This document shows positions 1,883 through 22,799 of a stretch of 32,752 nucleotides of DNA, one piece after another. Below the pieces are notes generated by a model. The model was not told the DNA's origin, did not search any database, and worked only from the letters and a program-made list of their open reading frames with translations. The position numbers were made by a program, and so were the translations under genes. The stretch comes from Oscillibacter sp. (GTDB lineage: Bacteria; Bacillota; Clostridia; Oscillospirales; Oscillospiraceae), in NCBI GenBank assembly GCA_022796315.1, contig JAAWIL010000003.1, positions 1-32,752 of the forward strand, written 5' to 3'. Every line of letters begins with the position of its first letter. The first letter of the stretch is position 1.

Positions 1883-1919
1883 AAAAAAACCGGGGACCGC
1901 CCTCAAGGGGGTCCCCGGT
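1883..1919 (-). terminator. Rho-independent terminator of the Cys/His-repeat gene
   Basis: A perfect 10-bp stem (ACCGGGGACC at 1889-1898, GGTCCCCGGT at 1910-1919) closes an 11-base loop. On the minus strand it is followed at once by a run of seven T. It lies 19 bases beyond the stop codon of the repeat-protein gene. Confidence 0.9.
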
Positions 1920-1938
1920 CATTGCGCGGATGGCCGCC

Positions 1939-2577
1939 TTATCGGTGGCAGCTGGCGCTCCAGTGCGTGCGCTGGCCCGCCGCGGCGCAGACAGCATGGT
2001 TGCCATCACAGAAGCCGCTCTCGTGCCGGTAGCCGCAGTAGGCGGTGCCGTAGTGGCTGTGCTGGCCAAGGGTTGTGCAGCCCGCCACAGAGCAGAGGGC
2101 CTGGCAGTGTCCGTCGCAGAATCCGGTTTCATGGTCATAGCCGCAGTAGGCGGTGCCGGAATGGGTGTGCCGCCCCGTGACGGCGCAGCCCTCTACAGAG
2201 CACAGGGCCCGGCAGAGTCCGTCGCAGAATCCGGTTTCGTGGTCATAGCCGCAGTAGGGCGTGCCGTTGTGGCTGTGGGGGCCCACTGCGTCACAGTCCT
2301 CCACGGTGCACAGGGCCCGGCACTTCCCGTCGCAAAAGCCGCTTTCGTGGGCATAGCCGCAGTAGGTCACGCCGCTGTGGCTGTGCCGCCCGGCAAGGGT
2401 GCAGCCCTGCACCGGGCAGACGGCAATCGCGGCGGGGGTCTGAACGGTCTGGACGCTCTGGGTGTTTCTGCGGGGTCCGTTATGATGCCCATGACCATGG
2501 GCCAGCGCCGGCAGGACGAGGGACACGGCGGTTAAAACAACAATGAAACAGACGGGAACAAGCTTCTTGGATTTCAT
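1939..2577 (-). CDS. Secreted Cys/His-rich protein with four 36-residue repeats; unrecognised family
   Basis: The protein has 212 residues. A signal peptide (KSKK, then a hydrophobic run to about residue 26, ending ALA) is followed by a mature N-terminus HGHGHH. After a short linker come four tandem 36-residue repeats (54-89, 90-125, 126-161, 162-197). Each follows the plan C-x-V-x-x-C-x3-G-x-H-x-H-x-G-x-x-Y-C-G-Y-x-H-E-x-G-F-C-D-G, with a further Cys-x-A-L in the first three; a 15-residue tail ends CHR. Each repeat carries four or five Cys and three His, which suggests bound metal or disulfides. I do not recognise the family and assign no function. The ATG at 2577 is chosen because GGAG precedes it and the signal peptide then starts properly. 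The gene has its own promoter (2613-2641) and terminator. Secretion is well supported; metal binding is inference. Confidence 0.85.
   Translation of the reverse strand: MKSKKLVPVCFIVVLTAVSLVLPALAHGHGHHNGPRRNTQSVQTVQTPAAIAVCPVQGCTLAGRHSHSGVTYCGYAHESGFCDGKCRALCTVEDCDAVGPHSHNGTPYCGYDHETGFCDGLCRALCSVEGCAVTGRHTHSGTAYCGYDHETGFCDGHCQALCSVAGCTTLGQHSHYGTAYCGYRHESGFCDGNHAVCAAAGQRTHWSASCHR
1987..2418 (-). repeat. Four in-frame 108-bp tandem repeats within the Cys/His protein gene
   Basis: Repeats occupy about 2311-2418, 2203-2310, 2095-2202 and 1987-2094, each 108 bp and in frame. They encode the 36-residue unit. Words such as those encoding YCGY and GFCDG are nearly identical at DNA level between copies, suggesting recent internal duplication or homogenisation. 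Confidence 0.85.
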
Positions 2578-2612: not shown

Positions 2613-2641
2613 AGTATAGCACATCCCCAAGGGGGGCGCAA
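2613..2641 (-). promoter_or_regulatory. Promoter of the Cys/His-repeat gene with a palindrome in its spacer
   Basis: Minus-strand TTGCGC (2636-2641) and TATACT (2613-2618) are 17 bases apart. The predicted start is about 29 bases before the ATG. The spacer contains the 10-base palindrome CCCCAAGGGG (2625-2634), a possible operator. Confidence 0.5.
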
Positions 2642-2705: not shown

Positions 2706-5405
2706 TTACGCCTCCTCGATCTGGCGGGGAGGATGGAAGAAGGGAATTGCGGCGTCGTCCCGCCGCAGGAACAGCAGGCCGAATGACCCTGGGCCGCAGT
2801 TGCTGGCGATGGCGGAGGAGGCCTTTTGCAGGTAGACCCGCTCAAAGGGGCAGACCTGCTGCACCGTGCTTTGAATAAACTGGAGCTGATCCTCATCCAT
2901 GCCGGAGTAGGTGATGAACAAGATCCGCCGGTCGATGTTTCTGATGTCCTGGAGAGTCCGCTTGATGTATTTCTTCGCCGCGTGGGAGAAGCTGCCCGTC
3001 TCCATATGGCCCACAACCATTTTGCTCTTTTTCAGCACCAGTACCGGATGCAGCAGCAGCGCGTCGCAGAGGATCTGAATGCGTTTTGAGATCCGCCCGG
3101 TCTGACACAGCATATGGGTGCTGTTGACGATGAACGCGGAGGAGATGAACCGCTCCACCCGCCGCACGGCGGCCACGATCTCCGCCTTGGTGGCATGGTG
3201 CTCCGCCAGATAGGCCGCGCACAGCACCGACAGCCCCATGCTGCTGGAGAGGTGTCCGGAATCAATCACGGTGACATTCTCAAAGGACTTCGCCGCCTCA
3301 AAGGCGTTTTGATATCCCTCACTGACGTTCTTTGCCATGGTGATGTGGATCACGTTCTGCGCCTCCGTCAGCCTGCCCGCGAAGAACCGCTCGTAGTCCT
3401 CCACGTCAGGGGGCTGGGAGACGCCCTTCCGTCCCCCGGCGATGTGCATCAGCAGCTCGTCGGGCTTCAGCTCCTCCCCGTCCAGGAACCGGCCCTCCTC
3501 CGTGCAGACATAGTAGGGACACACGGAGATGTCAAAGACGCGCCGGAGGCTCTCCGGGAGGTCACAGACGCTGTCCGTGGTGACCAGGACCGAGCGCCGC
3601 TGCACCTGCTCAAAGATCAGGATGTCCTTTTCAATATCCGACTGGATGGCGTCCTCGCTGATCTGGACCAGTTCCTTCGGGAGGATGCTCAGCACCGCCG
3701 CCTCCAGCAGCGCGCCGCTGACGGGCTTGGCCAGATATCCGCTGAAGCCCTCCCTGCGGTAGAGGAGCTGGTTGTCGCTGCCGGCGTTGGCTGTCAGGGC
3801 GACCACGGGCGCGTTCTGGCACAGGCCGCCGGGCTGTGCCCGCAGGGCGTGGAGGCACTCGATGCCATCCATCTCCGGCATCATGTGGTCCATCAGGATG
3901 CAGTCGTAGTAGTGGTTCTGCGTCAGCTTTAGACACTCCGTGCCGCTGGAGGCCGTGTCAATATGGATTTTGGTGTCCGCCAGGAGCTTGCTGACCACCA
4001 TGAGGTTCATGTCGTTGTCGTCCACCACCAGGATGTGGGCGTCCGGGGCCTCAAAGCTCTGCCGGTAGGGTTCCCCGTCGCGGCGCTGGGCGCGGGAGGA
4101 CAGGGTGAAGGTGCCCAGATCGCTGGCGTCAACGATATCCTGCTCCAGGGTGACAATGAATGTGGAGCCCTTGGTGTAGACGCTGTTCACGCTGATCTCG
4201 CCGTCCATCAGATCCACCAGCTGCCGGACGATGCTCAGCCCCAGGCCGGTTCCCTCGATGAGGCGGTTCTTCTCCTCGTCCACCCGCTGGAAGGCGTTGA
4301 AGATGTAAGGGATGTTCTCCTTGCGCACGCCCTGTCCGGTGTCCTCCACGGAGTACCAGACGCGGACCCGGTTTACCGACAGGCGCTCGCACCGGACGGA
4401 GAGGGTGACGGAGCCCTTGCTGGTGTATTTCACCGCGTTGTTCAGCAGGTTGATCAGAATCTGCTTGATGCGCACCTCGTCTCCGCAGAGCATGCTGGGG
4501 ATGGAGGAGTCCACGTGGAGCTTGAATTCCAGGCCCTTCTCCTTGGCCTTGATCCAGATCATGTTGACGATTTCCGAGAAGAGGGCCCCGGTCTCATAGG
4601 AGACGTTGACGATCTCCATCTTTCCGGATTTGATTTTGGAGATATCCAGGATGTCGTTGATCAGGGTCAGCAGCAGCCTGCTGGCCCCCTGGATGTTCCG
4701 GGCGTTCTCGGCGATGTCCTCAGGGATGTCCTTCCGCAGGATGATCTCGTTCAGGCCGATGATGGTGTTGATGGGCGTGCGGATCTCGTGGCTCATGCTG
4801 GAAAAGAAGTGGTTCTCCGCCCGGTTCAGCTCTTCGATCTCCTTTTTCTGCTGCTGGGAGAGGGCGTTTTCCTCTTCGTACATCCGGGTCAGGAACAGCA
4901 GCAACACGCAGGTCAAAAGTCCCACCAGGACCACGGAGAAGGCGGAGTCAAAGAAGGAGCGCTGCTGGGTGCTCTGGATGATGTGCTCCGGAAAATAGAG
5001 GGCGAGGCCATAGCAAAGCAGGGTCTCCGCCGTACAGAGGGCGAAGAACACCGCCATGCGCTTCCCCTGCAAGGTCAGGCAGACGTAGATGAAACAAAAC
5101 ACAAACCACTCCGGCACGCCGCTGTAAAACCCGCCCGCCGTAAAAAAGCTGATGGGAAACAGGGTCAGCAGCAGCACGGTGATGGCCGTGGCCCCCGTAT
5201 GGATGCACTCCTTCCGGACGCTGTACTTCACAATCGCCGCCATGGCCAGCAGGCTCACAGCCAGGATCAGGATATTCCAGGGGTTCCGGCCCATGGGCAG
5301 GATGAATACCAGCGCAACCATGCAGGTGCCCGTTACAATCCGGAACATCCGGTCACGCAGGCTGATTCTGTGGTCGGAGATGATGTTAAACCATTTTTGA
5401 ATCAC
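2706..5405 (-). CDS. Hybrid histidine kinase-receiver fused to a C-terminal DegV lipid-binding domain
   Basis: About 899 residues. In order: roughly six membrane segments (20-175); HisKA with phospho-acceptor His206 in SHEIRTP; HATPase with N-box NLLNNAVKY, EDTGQG and GTGLGLSI (385-392), all intact; a receiver (about 455-580) with phosphorylatable Asp506 in LMDHMMPEMDG and Lys560; then about 280 residues of DegV type (604-884). The DegV part shows VTTDSVCDLP, FLDGEEL, VSQPP, VIDSGHLSSSMG, TGRIS and the terminal GPGSFGLLF. DegV/FakB proteins are fatty-acid-binding subunits that normally stand alone, so this fusion is unusual. It is the last gene of a three-gene operon, 122 bases after the HPt kinase. 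Start: the GTG at 5417 directly abuts GAGGA with no spacer. The GTG at 5405 has AGGAG 11 bases upstream and is preferred, but the start is uncertain. No clear terminator follows. Confidence 0.9.
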   Translation of the reverse strand: MIQKWFNIISDHRISLRDRMFRIVTGTCMVALVFILPMGRNPWNILILAVSLLAMAAIVKYSVRKECIHTGATAITVLLLTLFPISFFTAGGFYSGVPEWFVFCFIYVCLTLQGKRMAVFFALCTAETLLCYGLALYFPEHIIQSTQQRSFFDSAFSVVLVGLLTCVLLLFLTRMYEEENALSQQQKKEIEELNRAENHFFSSMSHEIRTPINTIIGLNEIILRKDIPEDIAENARNIQGASRLLLTLINDILDISKIKSGKMEIVNVSYETGALFSEIVNMIWIKAKEKGLEFKLHVDSSIPSMLCGDEVRIKQILINLLNNAVKYTSKGSVTLSVRCERLSVNRVRVWYSVEDTGQGVRKENIPYIFNAFQRVDEEKNRLIEGTGLGLSIVRQLVDLMDGEISVNSVYTKGSTFIVTLEQDIVDASDLGTFTLSSRAQRRDGEPYRQSFEAPDAHILVVDDNDMNLMVVSKLLADTKIHIDTASSGTECLKLTQNHYYDCILMDHMMPEMDGIECLHALRAQPGGLCQNAPVVALTANAGSDNQLLYRREGFSGYLAKPVSGALLEAAVLSILPKELVQISEDAIQSDIEKDILIFEQVQRRSVLVTTDSVCDLPESLRRVFDISVCPYYVCTEEGRFLDGEELKPDELLMHIAGGRKGVSQPPDVEDYERFFAGRLTEAQNVIHITMAKNVSEGYQNAFEAAKSFENVTVIDSGHLSSSMGLSVLCAAYLAEHHATKAEIVAAVRRVERFISSAFIVNSTHMLCQTGRISKRIQILCDALLLHPVLVLKKSKMVVGHMETGSFSHAAKKYIKRTLQDIRNIDRRILFITYSGMDEDQLQFIQSTVQQVCPFERVYLQKASSAIASNCGPGSFGLLFLRRDDAAIPFFHPPRQIEEA

Positions 5406-5527
5406 GCAGTTGTTCACTCCTCAAAACGTGGTGTGCAGGGGATGCGTTCCGGGTGCTCTGTGAGACCCTGCCGCGCCGCGTCCCGGCGATGCCGCCGGTG
5501 GCGGAGGCCGTCTCCCGGGAGGGGCCG

Positions 5528-8098
5528 TCACAGCTCGCCGATGTGGGCGCAGAGATCCCGGTATGCCTGCAGCAGCGCGGAGTGGTGTTCCAGGATGTAG
5601 TCTGCGTCGCCCTGCTTTCCGGCCATCTCCAGCGCCTTGGCCTGGGCGGAAAGGGTCTCCGCGCCAATGGTCAGGGAGGTGCTCTTCAAGGCGTGGACCT
5701 TGACCGCGTACTCCCCCCAATCGCCCTGTTCATACAGGGAGACCAGCTCTGAGATCTTGCCCGGGCTCTGGGTACAGAAGAGCCGCAGCATTTCCAGGTA
5801 AAAGTTCTCGTCTCCGGCGCAGTAGTTCAGGCCAATCTCCGTATTGACGCCGGCCTGGGTGAGCCGGCCGTAGGGAATCACGGATTCCTCAGCCGGCGGA
5901 GCGGCCGGGGGCTCCGGCGGATTCACCGGCTCCGGGGCTGCGGCGGGTTCCTCCAGGGGCGGCTTTATATCAGGGGGGTCCAACCGCGCCTGCGAAGCGG
6001 GGACAGGCTCCTTTTCAGGCGGCGGAGCTGCGGACTTGGCGGTGTACTGGATGCAGCTCTTGGGCAGGACCTTCCGCAGCACCCGTTCCAGCACCGTGCG
6101 CTCAATGGGCTTGGGGACAAACTCGGTGAACCCCTCGCTGCGGAACATCTCCCTGGCGCCGCTGACGGTATTGGCGGTCAGCGCGATCACCGGCAGCGCC
6201 CGGTACTTGCCGTTTCGGAGCTCGCGGATCTTTTTCAGGGTCTCCACACCGTCGAAGCCGGGCATCATGTGGTCCAGGAAGATGATGTCGTAGGAGACGC
6301 TGCTGCACCGGGCGATGGCCTCCCGGCCGCTGAGGCAGGTGTCCACCTCGATTCCATAGCTGCCCAGAACGCCCTTGGCCACCACCAGGTTCATCTCCTC
6401 GTCGTCCACCGCCAGGGCCCGGACGCCGACACAGGTGAAGGGCTTTCGGCCTGCGGCCTGGTCCTCCGCGAACCCGCGCTCGCCCATCTCCCCGTTCAGA
6501 AGGTTGGCGACCGAGATGGCGGAAAAGGGCTTGTGGATCACCATCAGACTGCTCCCGCTGTCCAGAGTGAACTCCCGCTCTGCGATTACAACGACACGGA
6601 GGGTCTTGGACAGATCCTCGTAGTACGCCTGGTCCTCCTGGTATTCCGCCTGGGTGATGAAGGCGTGGGTCAGCGCGTGATTGCGCTGGAGCTTGAGGAA
6701 GCCCTCGAAATTGTGGGCCTGATACCCGTGGACGCCCAGGCCCTCTACCAAGTTCAGAATCAGCCCGTCATAGTAGCCCCGCACCTCGTCACAGCTGTAC
6801 TTTTCCGGATTGAAATAGCAGGCGATGCAGAGCTGGTCCGCGTGGGTCAGGGTGATGCAGGGACGTTCGTCCACAACGCCCTGGGGGATGACGATATGGG
6901 CGTGCAGGCCCTGGCGGTCGTTGCTGTCAAAGTGGATAAAGCCGCCCATGGCGTTCAGGAGTCCCCGGGCAATGGGCAGCCCCAGGCCGAGCCCTCCCGT
7001 GAAGCGGCTGCTTCCGGAGTCCACCTGGTAAAAATCGTCGTACATCTGAAGGAGCTGGGAGTCCGTCATGCCGATCCCGGTGTCGTGGATGTCAATCACC
7101 AGATTGACGCCATAGCCCTCCCGGCGGGAGTCGATCTGGACGTTGACGCCGCCCTCCTCCGTAAATTTGATGGAGTTTTCCACCAGGATCTTCAGCACGT
7201 GGGAGATTTTCTCCGCGTCGCCCACCAGAACCGCGGGGATTTTCGGATTGATGTCAAACACGATTTCCAGGTGCGGCCGGTTGCTCTGCAGCGCGGTCAT
7301 GGTGATGACATCGTTCAGCACCGAGGTGATCATGTACTCTTCCTTGGCCGGAACCAGCGTGCCCTCCACAATCTCCGTATAGTCCATCATGTTGTTGATC
7401 TGGTTGGAAAGACGCTTTCCCGCCATCTCAATGGAGGTCATATCCGTCCGGATCTCCGGGGGAAGGTTTCTTCCCAGGGCCACCTCGCTGATGCCGATCA
7501 CCATATTGATGGGGGTGCGGAGCTCGTGAGACACATTGGATAAAAAGACGGCGCTCTGCTTTCCGGCCGTCTCCAGATCCGCGAATACGCGCGCATACCA
7601 GTTCCGCTGCGCAATCCTCTGCTTGATCCAGAATCTGGAAAGCGCCGTACCCCCAAAGACCACAACAGCACCGAGCCCCAGGCGAACCGCAGACGGGAGC
7701 TCCATGCCAGAAGAGATGGTATGAAGGATCAGAGCATGATACAGCAGCTCCAGCACATACAGCAGCTCGATCATGTGCAGAATCCATTTTTTGTTCAGCA
7801 TGAACAGCGCCAGGATCAGGATGCAGGCCGCAGCGGGGATGTCGAAGAGGGTGGCCTCGTGGATTCCAAAGAAAAAGAACTCCACCAGCATCAGTCCGGC
7901 GCATAAATACTCATAAAAGGCATCGGAGCCCATCCGCGCGATGTGCAGAAGCCACACGCTGAAGCAGCCCGCCAGCATCAGCGGGACCACCCAGAGCTCC
8001 CAGGCCAGAAGGACCACAATCAGGCTCAGCAGGGCGCTGAACGACGTGGTGACGACAGCCAGCAGCAGATGCCTGCTTGTCTGCTCGTCCGATCTCAT
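5528..8098 (-). CDS. Hybrid histidine kinase with pseudo-receiver, receiver and HPt domains
   Basis: The protein has 856 residues. About six membrane segments (12-155) are followed by HisKA with His191 in SHELRTP, and a HATPase with Asn308, HDTGIGM and GGLGLGLPIA (368-376). A region at 416-535 has the alternating strand/helix pattern of a receiver and keeps the C-terminal KP, but lacks the acceptor Asp, so it is a pseudo-receiver. A genuine receiver follows (560-680; Asp565/566, acceptor Asp609 in FLDHMMPGFDG, Lys663). Next come a Pro/Glu-rich linker (690-740) and an HPt domain with His802 in VHALKSTS. It is thus a complete His-Asp-His relay in one chain. Its ATG overlaps the stop codon of the upstream receiver gene by four bases (ATGA), so the two are translationally coupled. 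The ligand is unknown. Its membrane-kinase-receiver architecture resembles the next gene, suggesting an old duplication. Confidence 0.92.
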   Translation of the reverse strand: MRSDEQTSRHLLLAVVTTSFSALLSLIVVLLAWELWVVPLMLAGCFSVWLLHIARMGSDAFYEYLCAGLMLVEFFFFGIHEATLFDIPAAACILILALFMLNKKWILHMIELLYVLELLYHALILHTISSGMELPSAVRLGLGAVVVFGGTALSRFWIKQRIAQRNWYARVFADLETAGKQSAVFLSNVSHELRTPINMVIGISEVALGRNLPPEIRTDMTSIEMAGKRLSNQINNMMDYTEIVEGTLVPAKEEYMITSVLNDVITMTALQSNRPHLEIVFDINPKIPAVLVGDAEKISHVLKILVENSIKFTEEGGVNVQIDSRREGYGVNLVIDIHDTGIGMTDSQLLQMYDDFYQVDSGSSRFTGGLGLGLPIARGLLNAMGGFIHFDSNDRQGLHAHIVIPQGVVDERPCITLTHADQLCIACYFNPEKYSCDEVRGYYDGLILNLVEGLGVHGYQAHNFEGFLKLQRNHALTHAFITQAEYQEDQAYYEDLSKTLRVVVIAEREFTLDSGSSLMVIHKPFSAISVANLLNGEMGERGFAEDQAAGRKPFTCVGVRALAVDDEEMNLVVAKGVLGSYGIEVDTCLSGREAIARCSSVSYDIIFLDHMMPGFDGVETLKKIRELRNGKYRALPVIALTANTVSGAREMFRSEGFTEFVPKPIERTVLERVLRKVLPKSCIQYTAKSAAPPPEKEPVPASQARLDPPDIKPPLEEPAAAPEPVNPPEPPAAPPAEESVIPYGRLTQAGVNTEIGLNYCAGDENFYLEMLRLFCTQSPGKISELVSLYEQGDWGEYAVKVHALKSTSLTIGAETLSAQAKALEMAGKQGDADYILEHHSALLQAYRDLCAHIGEL

Positions 8099-18397: not shown

Positions 18398-18431
18398 TTG
18401 AGCGAGAAAAAATATGGGAGGGAACGGCAGC

Positions 18432-19487
18432 GTGAAACAGTTTTTTGGGATGAGCCGGAACGGCAATTTGGAGGAAGCGGTCCGTGGACTCCACAGCCCT
18501 CAGTTTATAATGCTGTTATCGAACGACACGCAATTTACAGCCCATGTGGAGGAGCTGGAGCGGCGCTTTCCCGGCGTTCCAAGCATCGGATGTATCGGGA
18601 TGAGCTATCAGACCAGCGTGGTGGAGAACGGCGTGGGAGTCATCGCGTTTTCGGATGGCGTCAAGGCTGCGGCCAACGTGCTGGAGCAGGCCTCCGTCAT
18701 GCCGGTCAAGTACATCCGGAGGCTGGAAAACGACGTGCAGGCGGTGGGCGGCTCCGGCAGGGACACGGTGTGCATTGACTTCTGCGCGGGGAACGACGCC
18801 TGTGTGCTGACCACCATCAACACGGTTTTGCAGCGGCAGGGAATCCCCCTGGTGGGGGGAACCGGCGACCAGGGACGGGTGTCCGCCAATGGGCGGGTGT
18901 ATCAGGACGCGGTGGCTTACGGAATCGTGCGGAACCAGAACGGAAGGGTGAAGACCTACAAGGAGAACATCTATCACCAGCTGGGGAATTACCGCTTCAT
19001 CGCCTCCAATACGGACCGGGCCAATTACATTCTGGGCTCTCTGAACGGAAAGCCCGCCAAGCAGGTCTATGAGAGCATCCTCCATGTGACCGATGAGGAG
19101 ATCCTGACCAGGACCTTCCAGAACCCCTTTGGCAAGATCAACGGGGACGATACCTGCATCATCTCGATCAAGGAGGTCCGGGGCAATGCCTTGGCCTGCT
19201 TCCGCCAGGTCAACGACTCCGACGTGCTGATCCTGCTGGAGCTGGGGGACTATCAGGCCATTACCAGGAATACGATTCAGCAGATCTGCCAGGAGTTCCC
19301 CAAGCGCTCCGCGGTGTTCTCCGTGAACTGCCTGTTCCGCTATAAGCTCTTTTCCGAGCGCAATTATATGCAGGCGTATCTGCGGGAGATGGCGGCTCTG
19401 GGGAGCCACGCTGGGCTTGTGGGATACGGTGAGCACTACAACAACCGGTTTGTGAATCAGTCCATGACCTGCGTGGTCTTTGAGTAA
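18432..19487 (+). CDS. FIST domain sensory protein
   Basis: About 351 residues, soluble, with no signal peptide. It shows FIST N and FIST C organisation: FIST N at about 15-190 (GIGCIGMSY-like turn, [30 protein letters not shown]) and FIST C at about 195-350 ([43 protein letters not shown]). FIST domains are proposed intracellular sensors of small ligands, perhaps amino acids, often linked to chemoreceptors, kinases or cyclic-di-GMP enzymes. The start is taken as GTG 18432, because GGGAGGG lies nine bases upstream. An ATG at 18414 has no such site and would leave a leader of only ten bases. The soluble chemoreceptor gene starts 11 bases after the stop, so the two are translated together. A functional partnership is inference. 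Confidence 0.87.
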
Positions 19488-19498
19488 GGAGGGACAGG

Positions 19499-20443
19499 AT
19501 GTTATTTACAGGAAAGCGCCGGCAGGCACCGGAGCAGCCCCGCGCGGAGAAGAGTCTGTACCCGGTGCTCCACGTGGCGGACAGCCTGAAGGCCTACCAG
19601 AGAGAGCTGGTGAAAAAAGAGGTGGCCTCCCTTTCGGAGCTGAGCATGGTGGGCAGCGCCTTCTCCAACGTGGTGGCGGAGGCGGACCAGTTTCAGGAGA
19701 AGCTCCAGGATTTGGGACAATCCTTTTCCGATATTGACCAGACGGCAGGGGGATTCCGCCAGGTGCGGGAGGAGGTCGCCCTGGCTGTGACGGCGGCCCA
19801 GGACCAGATGGAGGAGCTGGAGAAGACCTCCTCGCAGGTGCAGCGGTCCTATGAGGAGATGGCGGGGATGTTCGCCCAGCTGCAGGCCGCCATTGATGGG
19901 ATTCAAAAGTGCATGGGCAAGATTGTGTCTATCGCGGATCAGACGGATATCCTGGCCATCAACGCCTCCATTGAGGCGGCACGAGCCGGCGTGGAGGGCC
20001 GCGGCTTCGCCGTGGTAGCGGTGCAGGTTAAGGAGCTGGCCAAGGAGATCAAGGTGCTGGCGGCGGAGGTGAATACCGGCGTCGGCGACGTGGAGGACCG
20101 GGCGGGACAGCTCAGCGGAAGCATTACCACCTCCCAGCAGCTCCTGGGCCAGAGCATGGATATTGTGGAACAGACCGACGAGAGCTTTCGCCGGATTATG
20201 GCGGCGTCCGAGGGCGCGGTGTCCGTGCAGACGGAGATCTCCAGCGTGATCAGCGCCTCCCAGCAGAACCTGCAGATTATCTGCCAGTTTTTCGACCGGA
20301 TCAAGGACCAGTATCAGGAGGTCATCCGGCATATTGCGCAGGCCAGCCGCCTGGGCACGACAAAGAGCGCGATGTTTGAGGATATGGACAATATGATTTC
20401 TCAGATTCCGCCGATGGTGAAAGAGGCGAAAGAGGGACGCTGA
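19499..20443 (+). CDS. Soluble chemoreceptor-like protein (MCP signalling domain only)
   Basis: The 314-residue protein has no membrane segment, HAMP or sensor domain. Almost all of it is predicted long helix. The recognisable part is the MCP tip, about 130-190: [40 protein letters not shown]. This is shorter and more divergent than in the membrane receptor upstream. The ATG has AAGGAGG six bases before it. Because the protein lacks a sensor and follows a FIST gene by 11 bases, the FIST protein may supply sensing in trans, a split version of FIST-MCP fusions. Whether it couples to CheA/CheW or to something else cannot be told here, since no cheA or cheW lies in the window. Confidence 0.88.
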
Positions 20444-20455
20444 GGCCAGCGTCCC
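20434..20455 (+). other. Small hairpin over the soluble-MCP stop codon
   Basis: GGGACGCT (20434-20441) pairs with AGCGTCCC (20448-20455) around a six-base loop and includes the stop codon. No T run follows, so it is more likely an mRNA end stabiliser or partial attenuator than a terminator. Confidence 0.45.
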
Positions 20456-20537
20456 ATTTCACAGTCTCCATGAATGGGAGAGAGCTCCTTACTGCGTTTG
20501 GATTGGAAGCTCGTTCTAGGAAGGTGGTGCCGCAAAG

Positions 20538-22280
20538 ATGTCACTGAGAGAAAAGATTGCTTCGTTTTTGTTTCGGGCAAGAGCGAAGGAGAACTTGGAG
20601 GATGGCGCGCAGCAGGAGCAGGCGAAGGCAGAGACTGCGGAGGCCCAGGAGGACAGCAGCGTCAACCCGGCTGTGCTGGAGCTGTCTCCGGAACATGCCC
20701 TCCACCGTCTCCGGGAGATGCGCCGGCAGGAGGCCGGCTATATGCCGGCCCCCAGAATTTGCCTGGATGAGGAGGGAATCCTTCCGCCAGAGCTGGTGAA
20801 GAAGGAACTGAACCGCCTGCGCTCCTTCCTGAGCAGCGCTTGCGGCGCACGGCTCAAGCAGGCCAAGGGAAAGAAGCCGGGCAAGAACCGGAAAAAGGAG
20901 AAGGAGGCGGGGGAGCCGGAAGATGAGGGAGATGCGCTGATGCTGGACGCCCTGCCCCAGTTCTTCCTCTCGGCGGATAAGCTCTATGCCTGGATGATTG
21001 TGCTGCCGCCTGTTGGAGAGGGACAGGAGCTGAACCGGGACCTGCTCTGGCGAGCGATGCGGGGACAGGGGATTACCTACGGCGTAGACGAGCGGCTGGT
21101 GGACCGGCTGTCTCACGACGACGAGCGGTACTTCCACCTGTATCTCATTGCCAAGGGAAAACCCGCCTTTGACGGGAAAAACGGCAACATTGTGGACTAC
21201 TTCCCCCGGGTTGTGGAGCGGGTGATGGAGGTGGATGAGTTCGGGCAGGTGGACTATGCCAACCTGAACCTGATCCGCAATGTCAAGGAGGGGCAGGAGA
21301 TCTGCCGCCTCATTAAGCCCACCGAGGGCGAGCCGGGCCGGACGGTGACAGACCAGGAGATTCCCGCAAAGAGCGGAAAGCCGGTGCCGCTGCCGAAGGG
21401 GCGGAACACCGAGATCAGCGAGGACGAACTCTCCCTGATTGCGGTCATGCCGGGGCATGTGGAATTCACCGGCCGGAGCTTCCAGGTAAAGCCGGTGCTG
21501 GATATTGACGGAAATGTGGACTTTTCCACGGGAAATATCAAGTTCCTGGGGGACATCAATATCAAAGGCGACGTGCTCAGCGGGTTCACAGTCCGCGCCA
21601 TGGGAGATATTCACGTAGGCGGCGTGGTGGAGGCCGGAAGCACCGTGGAGGCCGGCGGAGACCTGGTGGTGGTCAAGGGCATCCTGGGAGACGGCACCAC
21701 GGTGATTCGCGCGCACCGGTGCGTCTTCTCCAAGTATATTGAGAACTCCACCATTTACGTCCGGGAGAACTTGCAGACGGACTGCATCATCAACGGCAGA
21801 GTGTACTGTGATGGAGAGGTCCACGTCCGCTCTGGGCGGGGCAGCATTATGGGCGGCCGGATCTGGGCCGCCAAGCTGGTAAACGCCGCGTCGGTGGGGT
21901 CCCCGGCGGAGTGCAGAACGACCATCGCCCTGGGAGGCCTGCCCTGCACGAACTTCGAGCGGGAGGTCGTGCAGCAGGAGCTGAAGGACCTGGAGATGGA
22001 TCTGGAGAAGCTGGAGTGCCAGCCGGACAGCCCGGTCAAGAGCAGTCTTCTGGCCAAGCTGCGGGTGAAGCTGTCTACGGCGGAGCTGAAGCTGAAGCAG
22101 CTGGAAGATGATTTGGTGGACATCGAACAGGAGATGACGGAGAAAACGGCGGGACGGATGGAGTGCGGTGTGGCCTACCCGGAGACGGAGATCAGCATTG
22201 GCGACGAGATGCTCCGCCTGCGGCGGGAGACCAGACAGTGCGTCGCGAAGCTGGTGAGCGGGGAGATCGTGGTGATATAA
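20538..22280 (+). CDS. FapA family protein (DUF342, flagellar assembly protein A-like)
   Basis: The protein has 580 residues. A variable N-terminus with a Lys-rich linker (about 105-125) is followed by the conserved FapA region (about 140-450). Motifs include AKGKPAFDGKNGNIVDYFPR, FGQVDYANLNLIRNVKEGQ and PTEGEPGRTV, then a right-handed beta-helix-like stretch of short hydrophobic turns (IDGNVDFSTGNIKFLGDINI, GDVLSGFTVRAMGDIHVGG). A coiled coil (475-540) and a short C-terminal cap end it. FapA proteins are poorly characterised polymer-forming proteins; a role in polar flagellar assembly has been described in Vibrio. No flagellar gene is visible here; instead it lies between a soluble chemoreceptor and a CheY-like receiver. 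It may scaffold or localise that unit, which is inference. An AGGTGG precedes the ATG. Confidence 0.88.
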   Translation: MSLREKIASFLFRARAKENLEDGAQQEQAKAETAEAQEDSSVNPAVLELSPEHALHRLREMRRQEAGYMPAPRICLDEEGILPPELVKKELNRLRSFLSSACGARLKQAKGKKPGKNRKKEKEAGEPEDEGDALMLDALPQFFLSADKLYAWMIVLPPVGEGQELNRDLLWRAMRGQGITYGVDERLVDRLSHDDERYFHLYLIAKGKPAFDGKNGNIVDYFPRVVERVMEVDEFGQVDYANLNLIRNVKEGQEICRLIKPTEGEPGRTVTDQEIPAKSGKPVPLPKGRNTEISEDELSLIAVMPGHVEFTGRSFQVKPVLDIDGNVDFSTGNIKFLGDINIKGDVLSGFTVRAMGDIHVGGVVEAGSTVEAGGDLVVVKGILGDGTTVIRAHRCVFSKYIENSTIYVRENLQTDCIINGRVYCDGEVHVRSGRGSIMGGRIWAAKLVNAASVGSPAECRTTIALGGLPCTNFEREVVQQELKDLEMDLEKLECQPDSPVKSSLLAKLRVKLSTAELKLKQLEDDLVDIEQEMTEKTAGRMECGVAYPETEISIGDEMLRLRRETRQCVAKLVSGEIVVI

Positions 22281-22436
22281 CCGGCCTTCACAGGGCGTTC
22301 AGGCGGCGGAACACGGGCCGCTTACGTCCGGCGGCAGAGGCGAGCGGTTGGACAGCGGAGCTGCCGGATTTCCCCGGCAGGGCGGTTCGGAGGGCCGCGC
22401 CTGCATGATCTGAAATCGGAAAGAGGAAACAGTGAT

Positions 22437-22799
22437 ATGAAGAAAAAGCTCATGGTGGTAGATGATTCCCGGATGATGGAGCTGCAGATCTGCAAGCTGC
22501 TGGAGGACTCTGCGTTCGAGGTGGCGGCATACTGCGAAAACGGCGAGGATGCGATTGTGCGCTATCAGGAGATTCATCCGGATATCGTGACCATGGACAT
22601 CATCATGCCTGGCATTGACGGCCTGGAGACGGCAAAGATCATCTTGGAGGAGCACCCGGAGGCACGCATTGTGATGCTTTCCTCTCTGGTGTGTGAGGAC
22701 ACCATCAATGAGGCCGGCAGCATCGGCGCGAAAACCTTTCTCAACAAGCCGGTCACAAGGGAGAACTTGCTTCAGGCTTTGGAGACGGCGCTGGGCTGA
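22437..22799 (+). CDS. CheY-like response regulator receiver
   Basis: The 120-residue protein is a lone receiver. The acidic pocket is VVDDSR (7-12), the acceptor is Asp54 in TMDIIMPGIDG, Ser82/Ser83 lie in MLSSL, and Lys104 is in LNKPV. It resembles CheY more than the receiver at 8095-8457, with IIMPGIDGLE and VMLSS as in clostridial CheY proteins. It is the last gene of the FIST/MCP/FapA unit, 156 bases after fapA. That gap has a 7-bp hairpin (22361-22380) but no T run or promoter that I can see. It may be the output of this chemosensory unit; the kinase is not in the window. Confidence 0.92.
   Translation: MKKKLMVVDDSRMMELQICKLLEDSAFEVAAYCENGEDAIVRYQEIHPDIVTMDIIMPGIDGLETAKIILEEHPEARIVMLSSLVCEDTINEAGSIGAKTFLNKPVTRENLLQALETALG

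Follow-up and report, generated by a model that had tools for sequence, protein, structure and literature searches.

A family of predicted secreted Cys/His-repeat proteins in Oscillibacter and related bacteria, with putative metal-binding units of 36 residues

The window analysed here, a stretch of 32,752 nucleotides from Oscillibacter sp., contains a gene whose product is, judged by its sequence, a member of a real and undescribed repeat family, and is very probably a secreted metal-binding protein. The repeat is far beyond chance, since some 40 loci in other genomes carry the same unit. Somewhat better than evenly supported, in our view, is the explanation that the protein would be a freely secreted, Sec-exported string of tandem metal modules which captures or buffers zinc outside the cell. 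The gene and its signals are arranged as follows.

2613..2641 (-): promoter, -35 TTGCGC (2636-2641), 17-nt spacer, extended -10 TGTGC-TATACT (2613-2618)
1939..2577 (-): gene for the predicted secreted Cys/His repeat protein (P0001), 212 aa plus TAA
2500..2577 (-): signal peptide, residues 1-26 (MKSKKLVPVCFIVVLTAVSLVLPALA), predicted type I cleavage after ALA
2482..2499 (-): mature N-terminus HGHGHH
2311..2418 (-): repeat unit 1, residues 54-89
2203..2310 (-): repeat unit 2, residues 90-125
2095..2202 (-): repeat unit 3, residues 126-161
1987..2094 (-): repeat unit 4, residues 162-197; CDGNH, final ligand His, not Cys
1942..1986 (-): degenerate tail, residues 198-212
1883..1920 (-): intrinsic terminator, GC stem then seven T; minimum free energy -37 kcal/mol over a 64-nt stretch, z -2.5

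A sequence-only reading, which gave no strand for the gene (it lies on the minus strand), had described four regular 36-residue Cys/His repeats behind a signal peptide and an HGHGHH start, and both descriptions proved correct. The units begin at residues 54, 90, 126 and 162, at a spacing of exactly 36 aa or 108 nt; pairs of units are identical in 20-25 of 36 amino acids and 69-85 of 108 nucleotides, and the 108-nt repeat was also detected directly at the nucleotide level. The hydrophobic signal sequence ends in LPALA and is followed immediately by HGHGHH, the A|H cleavage site being retained in nearly all relatives. Because the window protein has neither a lipobox nor an LPxTG motif, it is predicted to be released from the cell. 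Fourteen of 25 family proteins share the HGH start; H-G-H at a mature N-terminus would presumably be an amino-terminal copper/nickel (ATCUN) motif.

Altogether, 143 units, 138 of them distinct, were collected from 40 loci. Eight positions, forming the four pairs C-x4-C, H-x-H, C-x3-H and C-x3-C, are nearly invariant among the distinct units. As a unit was selected by at least five of the eight ligands together with the Gly after C3, the counts lean upward and overstate the invariance somewhat: C1 is present in 137 of 138 units and C2 in 138, H1 and H2 in 138 each, C3 in 137, H3 in 136, C4 in 137 and C5 in 132, while the Gly positions between C2 and H1, C3 and H3, and H3 and C4 are occupied in 138, 138 and 137. 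The consensus given in the sequence-only reading omitted the last conserved Cys (CDG-x-C), the complete unit comprising five Cys and three His. This last Cys is replaced in six units, twice by His (unit 4 of the window protein and a unit of L002). Two distant members show His at the place of C-x3-C as well, L041 (matching the window protein at E = 1e-10) with HYYGDGHDYH and L063 with GHTHHSSC. In L103 and L104 the first unit has a shortened loop and retains all four ligand pairs. The number of units per protein ranges from one to seven across the family, and two units of L002 that are identical in amino acids point to recent duplication.

The promoter of the repeat gene lies 35 nt ahead of the ATG. 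It is a dedicated one, as had been suggested, and a real one whose pattern relatives share: of 41 upstream regions, 22 contain TTG-N3, a spacer of 16-18 nt and an extended -10 (TG-N-TA), as against 0.5 in shuffled sequences. In seven Lachnospiraceae loci the promoter is instead TTGACA-17-TATGAT or TAGAAT, and the TG is lacking. The earlier hint that a palindrome in the spacer is significant found no support. The inverted repeat, CCCC-TT-GGGG with a 2-nt loop, exists in the window and was not found in the upstream regions of relatives; since it is not conserved, we rejected it as an operator. No operator conserved across relatives emerged from the compared upstream regions, and the promoter resembles the plain housekeeping type, which weighs against the explanation favoured here.

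Searches of known families agreed with the earlier impression of an unrecognised family. The repeat family has no significant match in Pfam or NCBIfam, nor in PDB sequences, and the window protein, the only member compared with PHROGs, has none there either. Scattered Pfam matches of single members, the best at 2.6e-6 to Ornatin in one member of 20, are not common to the family and fit a Cys-rich composition, and were therefore not taken as family identity. No description of the family was found in the literature searched, and Rfam gave no match within the window.

Relatives are unevenly distributed. The family was detected in 19 of 85 other species of the genus, in 10 of 150 other sampled genomes of the bacterial family, and in one genome each of the class-wide (390) and phylum-wide (398) samples. 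A search of genome contigs returned 16 relative loci, 15 of them clear, mostly from Oscillospiraceae/Oscillibacter and Lachnospiraceae; several apparently come from mouse-gut collections. Besides several Lachnospiraceae, a few more distant lineages carry the family. Apparent duplicates, on contigs equal in length and sequence, were counted once (L086=L005, L087=L006, L089=L003, L093=L002, L102=L004), L017 was left out for want of a readable unit, and L066-L069, four weak matches to the distant member L063 in which no unit was seen, were dropped. In the protein tree, six Lachnospiraceae rows group together (99/93) with Parablautia muri outside the group; most other forks are weak. Frequent loss or transfer could account for this patchy occurrence amid unrelated surroundings. 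An origin of the gene from phages or plasmids was rejected, as phages, plasmids and viral contigs gave no match.

How could such a protein work? It would leave the cell via Sec and be freely secreted. With its eight ligands in four pairs, each unit could form two tetrahedral sites of the zinc type; this number of sites follows from arithmetic, not from a structure, and would amount to about eight metals in a four-unit protein. His-rich ends might add weaker sites. The Cys residues would stay as thiolates on the metal, which is feasible in the anaerobic gut. Immediately outside the cell, the protein would most likely capture or buffer zinc or a different soft transition metal, either to supply the cell or to protect it. 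The sequences show the export signal, the unit architecture, the invariance of the ligands, the Cys to His exchange, the odd Cys number and the gene's own promoter and terminator; bound metal, two sites per unit, zinc as the metal and a buffering role are inferred.

The same residues could instead belong to a disulfide-rich secreted protein in which Cys are paired and His serve something else. Many extracellular domains held by disulfides are, like this protein, small, exported and rich in Cys, and some clostridia possess functional Dsb enzymes (PMC12453122). Where Dsb/VKOR are present, exported proteins show an excess of even Cys numbers (PMC12453122). The mature window protein, however, has 21 Cys, an odd number, and odd numbers occur in 13 of 25 mature family proteins with no preference for even ones, as expected if Cys pairing is not selected. 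Neither DsbA nor VKOR was found in the window's genome (88.7% complete), and among 12 carrier genomes VKOR was found in none and DsbA in two. Metal is further favoured because the three His of each unit are as fixed as the Cys and because Cys are exchanged for His in terminal units and in distant members. For the repeat units, metal binding fits better than disulfides, which we consider improbable; extracellular metal binding, already proposed from the sequence, stands as the best-supported reading, the metal and its role being putative.

If metal is bound, it might serve folding only, in structural zinc modules that bind a glycan, a mucin, a protein or a cell, the number of repeats setting the valency. 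In line with this, the unit number varies between one and seven from species to species while the ligands are fixed, and the constancy of certain Gly and Tyr positions points to a genuine fold, with a beta-hairpin at HxH. AlphaFold2 placed such a hairpin at HxH-SG-VTYC in models of low confidence from two designs, the whole protein and a two-unit alignment; clustering of ligands is not seen in them because mean pLDDT reaches only 59 and 64. Foldseek returned no significant match for these models, the weak ones including LIM domains, which hold structural zinc, and choline-binding repeats. On the other hand, residues between the ligands mostly vary freely, leaving no conserved patch apart from Gly and Tyr positions, and metal capture accounts better for the His-rich ends. 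Purely structural zinc seems to us a rather unlikely alternative, though one to be taken seriously. Far less credible is an iron-sulfur protein akin to the CDGSH family, suggested by CGY-x-H-x2-GFCDG-x-C, which has the spacing of the CDGSH motif. A profile match to a CISD3 chain (E = 0.029) and an aligned stretch of 14 columns, with the last three ligands spaced identically, are in its favour. Against it, hhalign gives a probability of 13% over those 14 columns only, the units lack both the first CDGSH ligand (a Cys two before Cys3) and the Pro, Pfam yields no family match to CDGSH (PF09360) above the curated cut-off, and none was found in the window's genome. Secretion is, moreover, unusual for CDGSH-type iron-sulfur clusters. 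Membership in this family was rejected.

Among the loci compared, the surroundings of the repeat gene form no conserved operon and, which speaks against capture or buffering of metal, contain no metal transporter conserved beside the gene, and the window's own neighbours, an SNF transporter and a histidine kinase-DegV protein, are not common to other loci. The latter (2706-5417, minus strand) is an unusual fusion, in one open frame, of a hybrid histidine kinase (HisKA, HATPase, receiver) to DegV. Elsewhere in the window (18414-22799, plus strand), translations inspected by eye include, one after another, what may be a FIST-type sensor, a short protein resembling chemoreceptors, a FapA-like protein and a receiver protein.

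Membrane sensors, some of them His-rich, lie near the repeat gene in some lineages, as BlaI/BlaR1-type M56 or sigma/RsgI-type pairs. Upstream of the repeat gene and on its strand, L007 has a BlaI-type repressor and an M56/BlaR1-type gene, and L033 an M56 gene; in both loci the M56 gene is the immediate neighbour. A divergent BlaI/M56 pair adjoins the repeat gene in L008. The BlaR1-type M56 proteins contain HHGEDHHEEH (L007, 5070-7952) and GHHHGDHH (L033, 6764-8539). Downstream of the repeat gene in L041 are a sigma factor, identified by Pfam, and an RsgI-type protein (5008-5814, minus strand) ending in GHHGGGHH. An RsgI-type protein was also recognised by eye beside the gene in L063 (1-556, minus strand); L041 and L063 are the two most distant members. 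Such His-rich neighbours speak for metal binding but occur in few loci only. A LacI-type regulator is the immediate upstream neighbour in six of seven Lachnospiraceae loci, and in L016 it is found about 1.5 kb upstream; the one in L010 is confirmed by Pfam. A single genus group has a divergent HtrA-type protease, with a DUF1540 protein and a TauE-type gene downstream; the DUF1540 protein (at 6070-6261 in L086 and at the corresponding place in seven further loci of the genus) is Cys-rich and starts with C-x4-C. As the neighbourhoods of relatives are not common to the window, context gives hints only. A tentative and rather doubtful extension would be that the family represents an undescribed bacterial module, strung in one to seven copies and each time fitting two metal sites into 36 residues, that belongs to an extracellular metal-sensing and capture system; in some lineages these membrane sensors would lie beside it.

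The family exports proteins of which about one quarter is Cys plus His, although the exported proteins of obligate anaerobes tend to lack Cys (PMC12453122). Should the units bind zinc, gut Clostridia would have a secreted metal buffer that present annotation misses, with possible consequences for zinc competition in the gut. As a metal module, a unit of 36 residues would also be very compact and easy to produce, if it holds two metals.

Several known systems invite comparison. The polyhistidine triad proteins (Pht) of streptococci are likewise extracellular, His-containing proteins of Gram-positives that handle metals; they differ in their triad motif HxxHxH, which the window protein lacks and relatives contain at most once, and the ligands here are mainly Cys in a small repeat. 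Metallothioneins are similarly small, very rich in ligands and built on repeated Cys motifs. The repeat protein, in contrast, is predicted to be exported and is built on a regular unit of 36 residues in which Gly, Tyr and His are fixed, and metallothionein profiles of Pfam and NCBIfam do not match the family. With the CDGSH iron-sulfur domain the units share the spacing C-x8-C-D-G-x-(C/H) over 14 residues; in missing its first Cys and Pro they depart from it, and by profile comparison the two are not homologous. RING, LIM and similar two-zinc modules resemble the unit in its shortness and in having eight Cys/His ligands in four pairs. There is no match to them in sequence, including Pfam profiles, and the present units, with spacings x4, x1, x3 and x3, stand in tandem in a protein predicted to be secreted from an anaerobe; the order of their pairs would allow either 1+3 and 2+4, as in a cross-brace, or a LIM-like 1+2 and 3+4.
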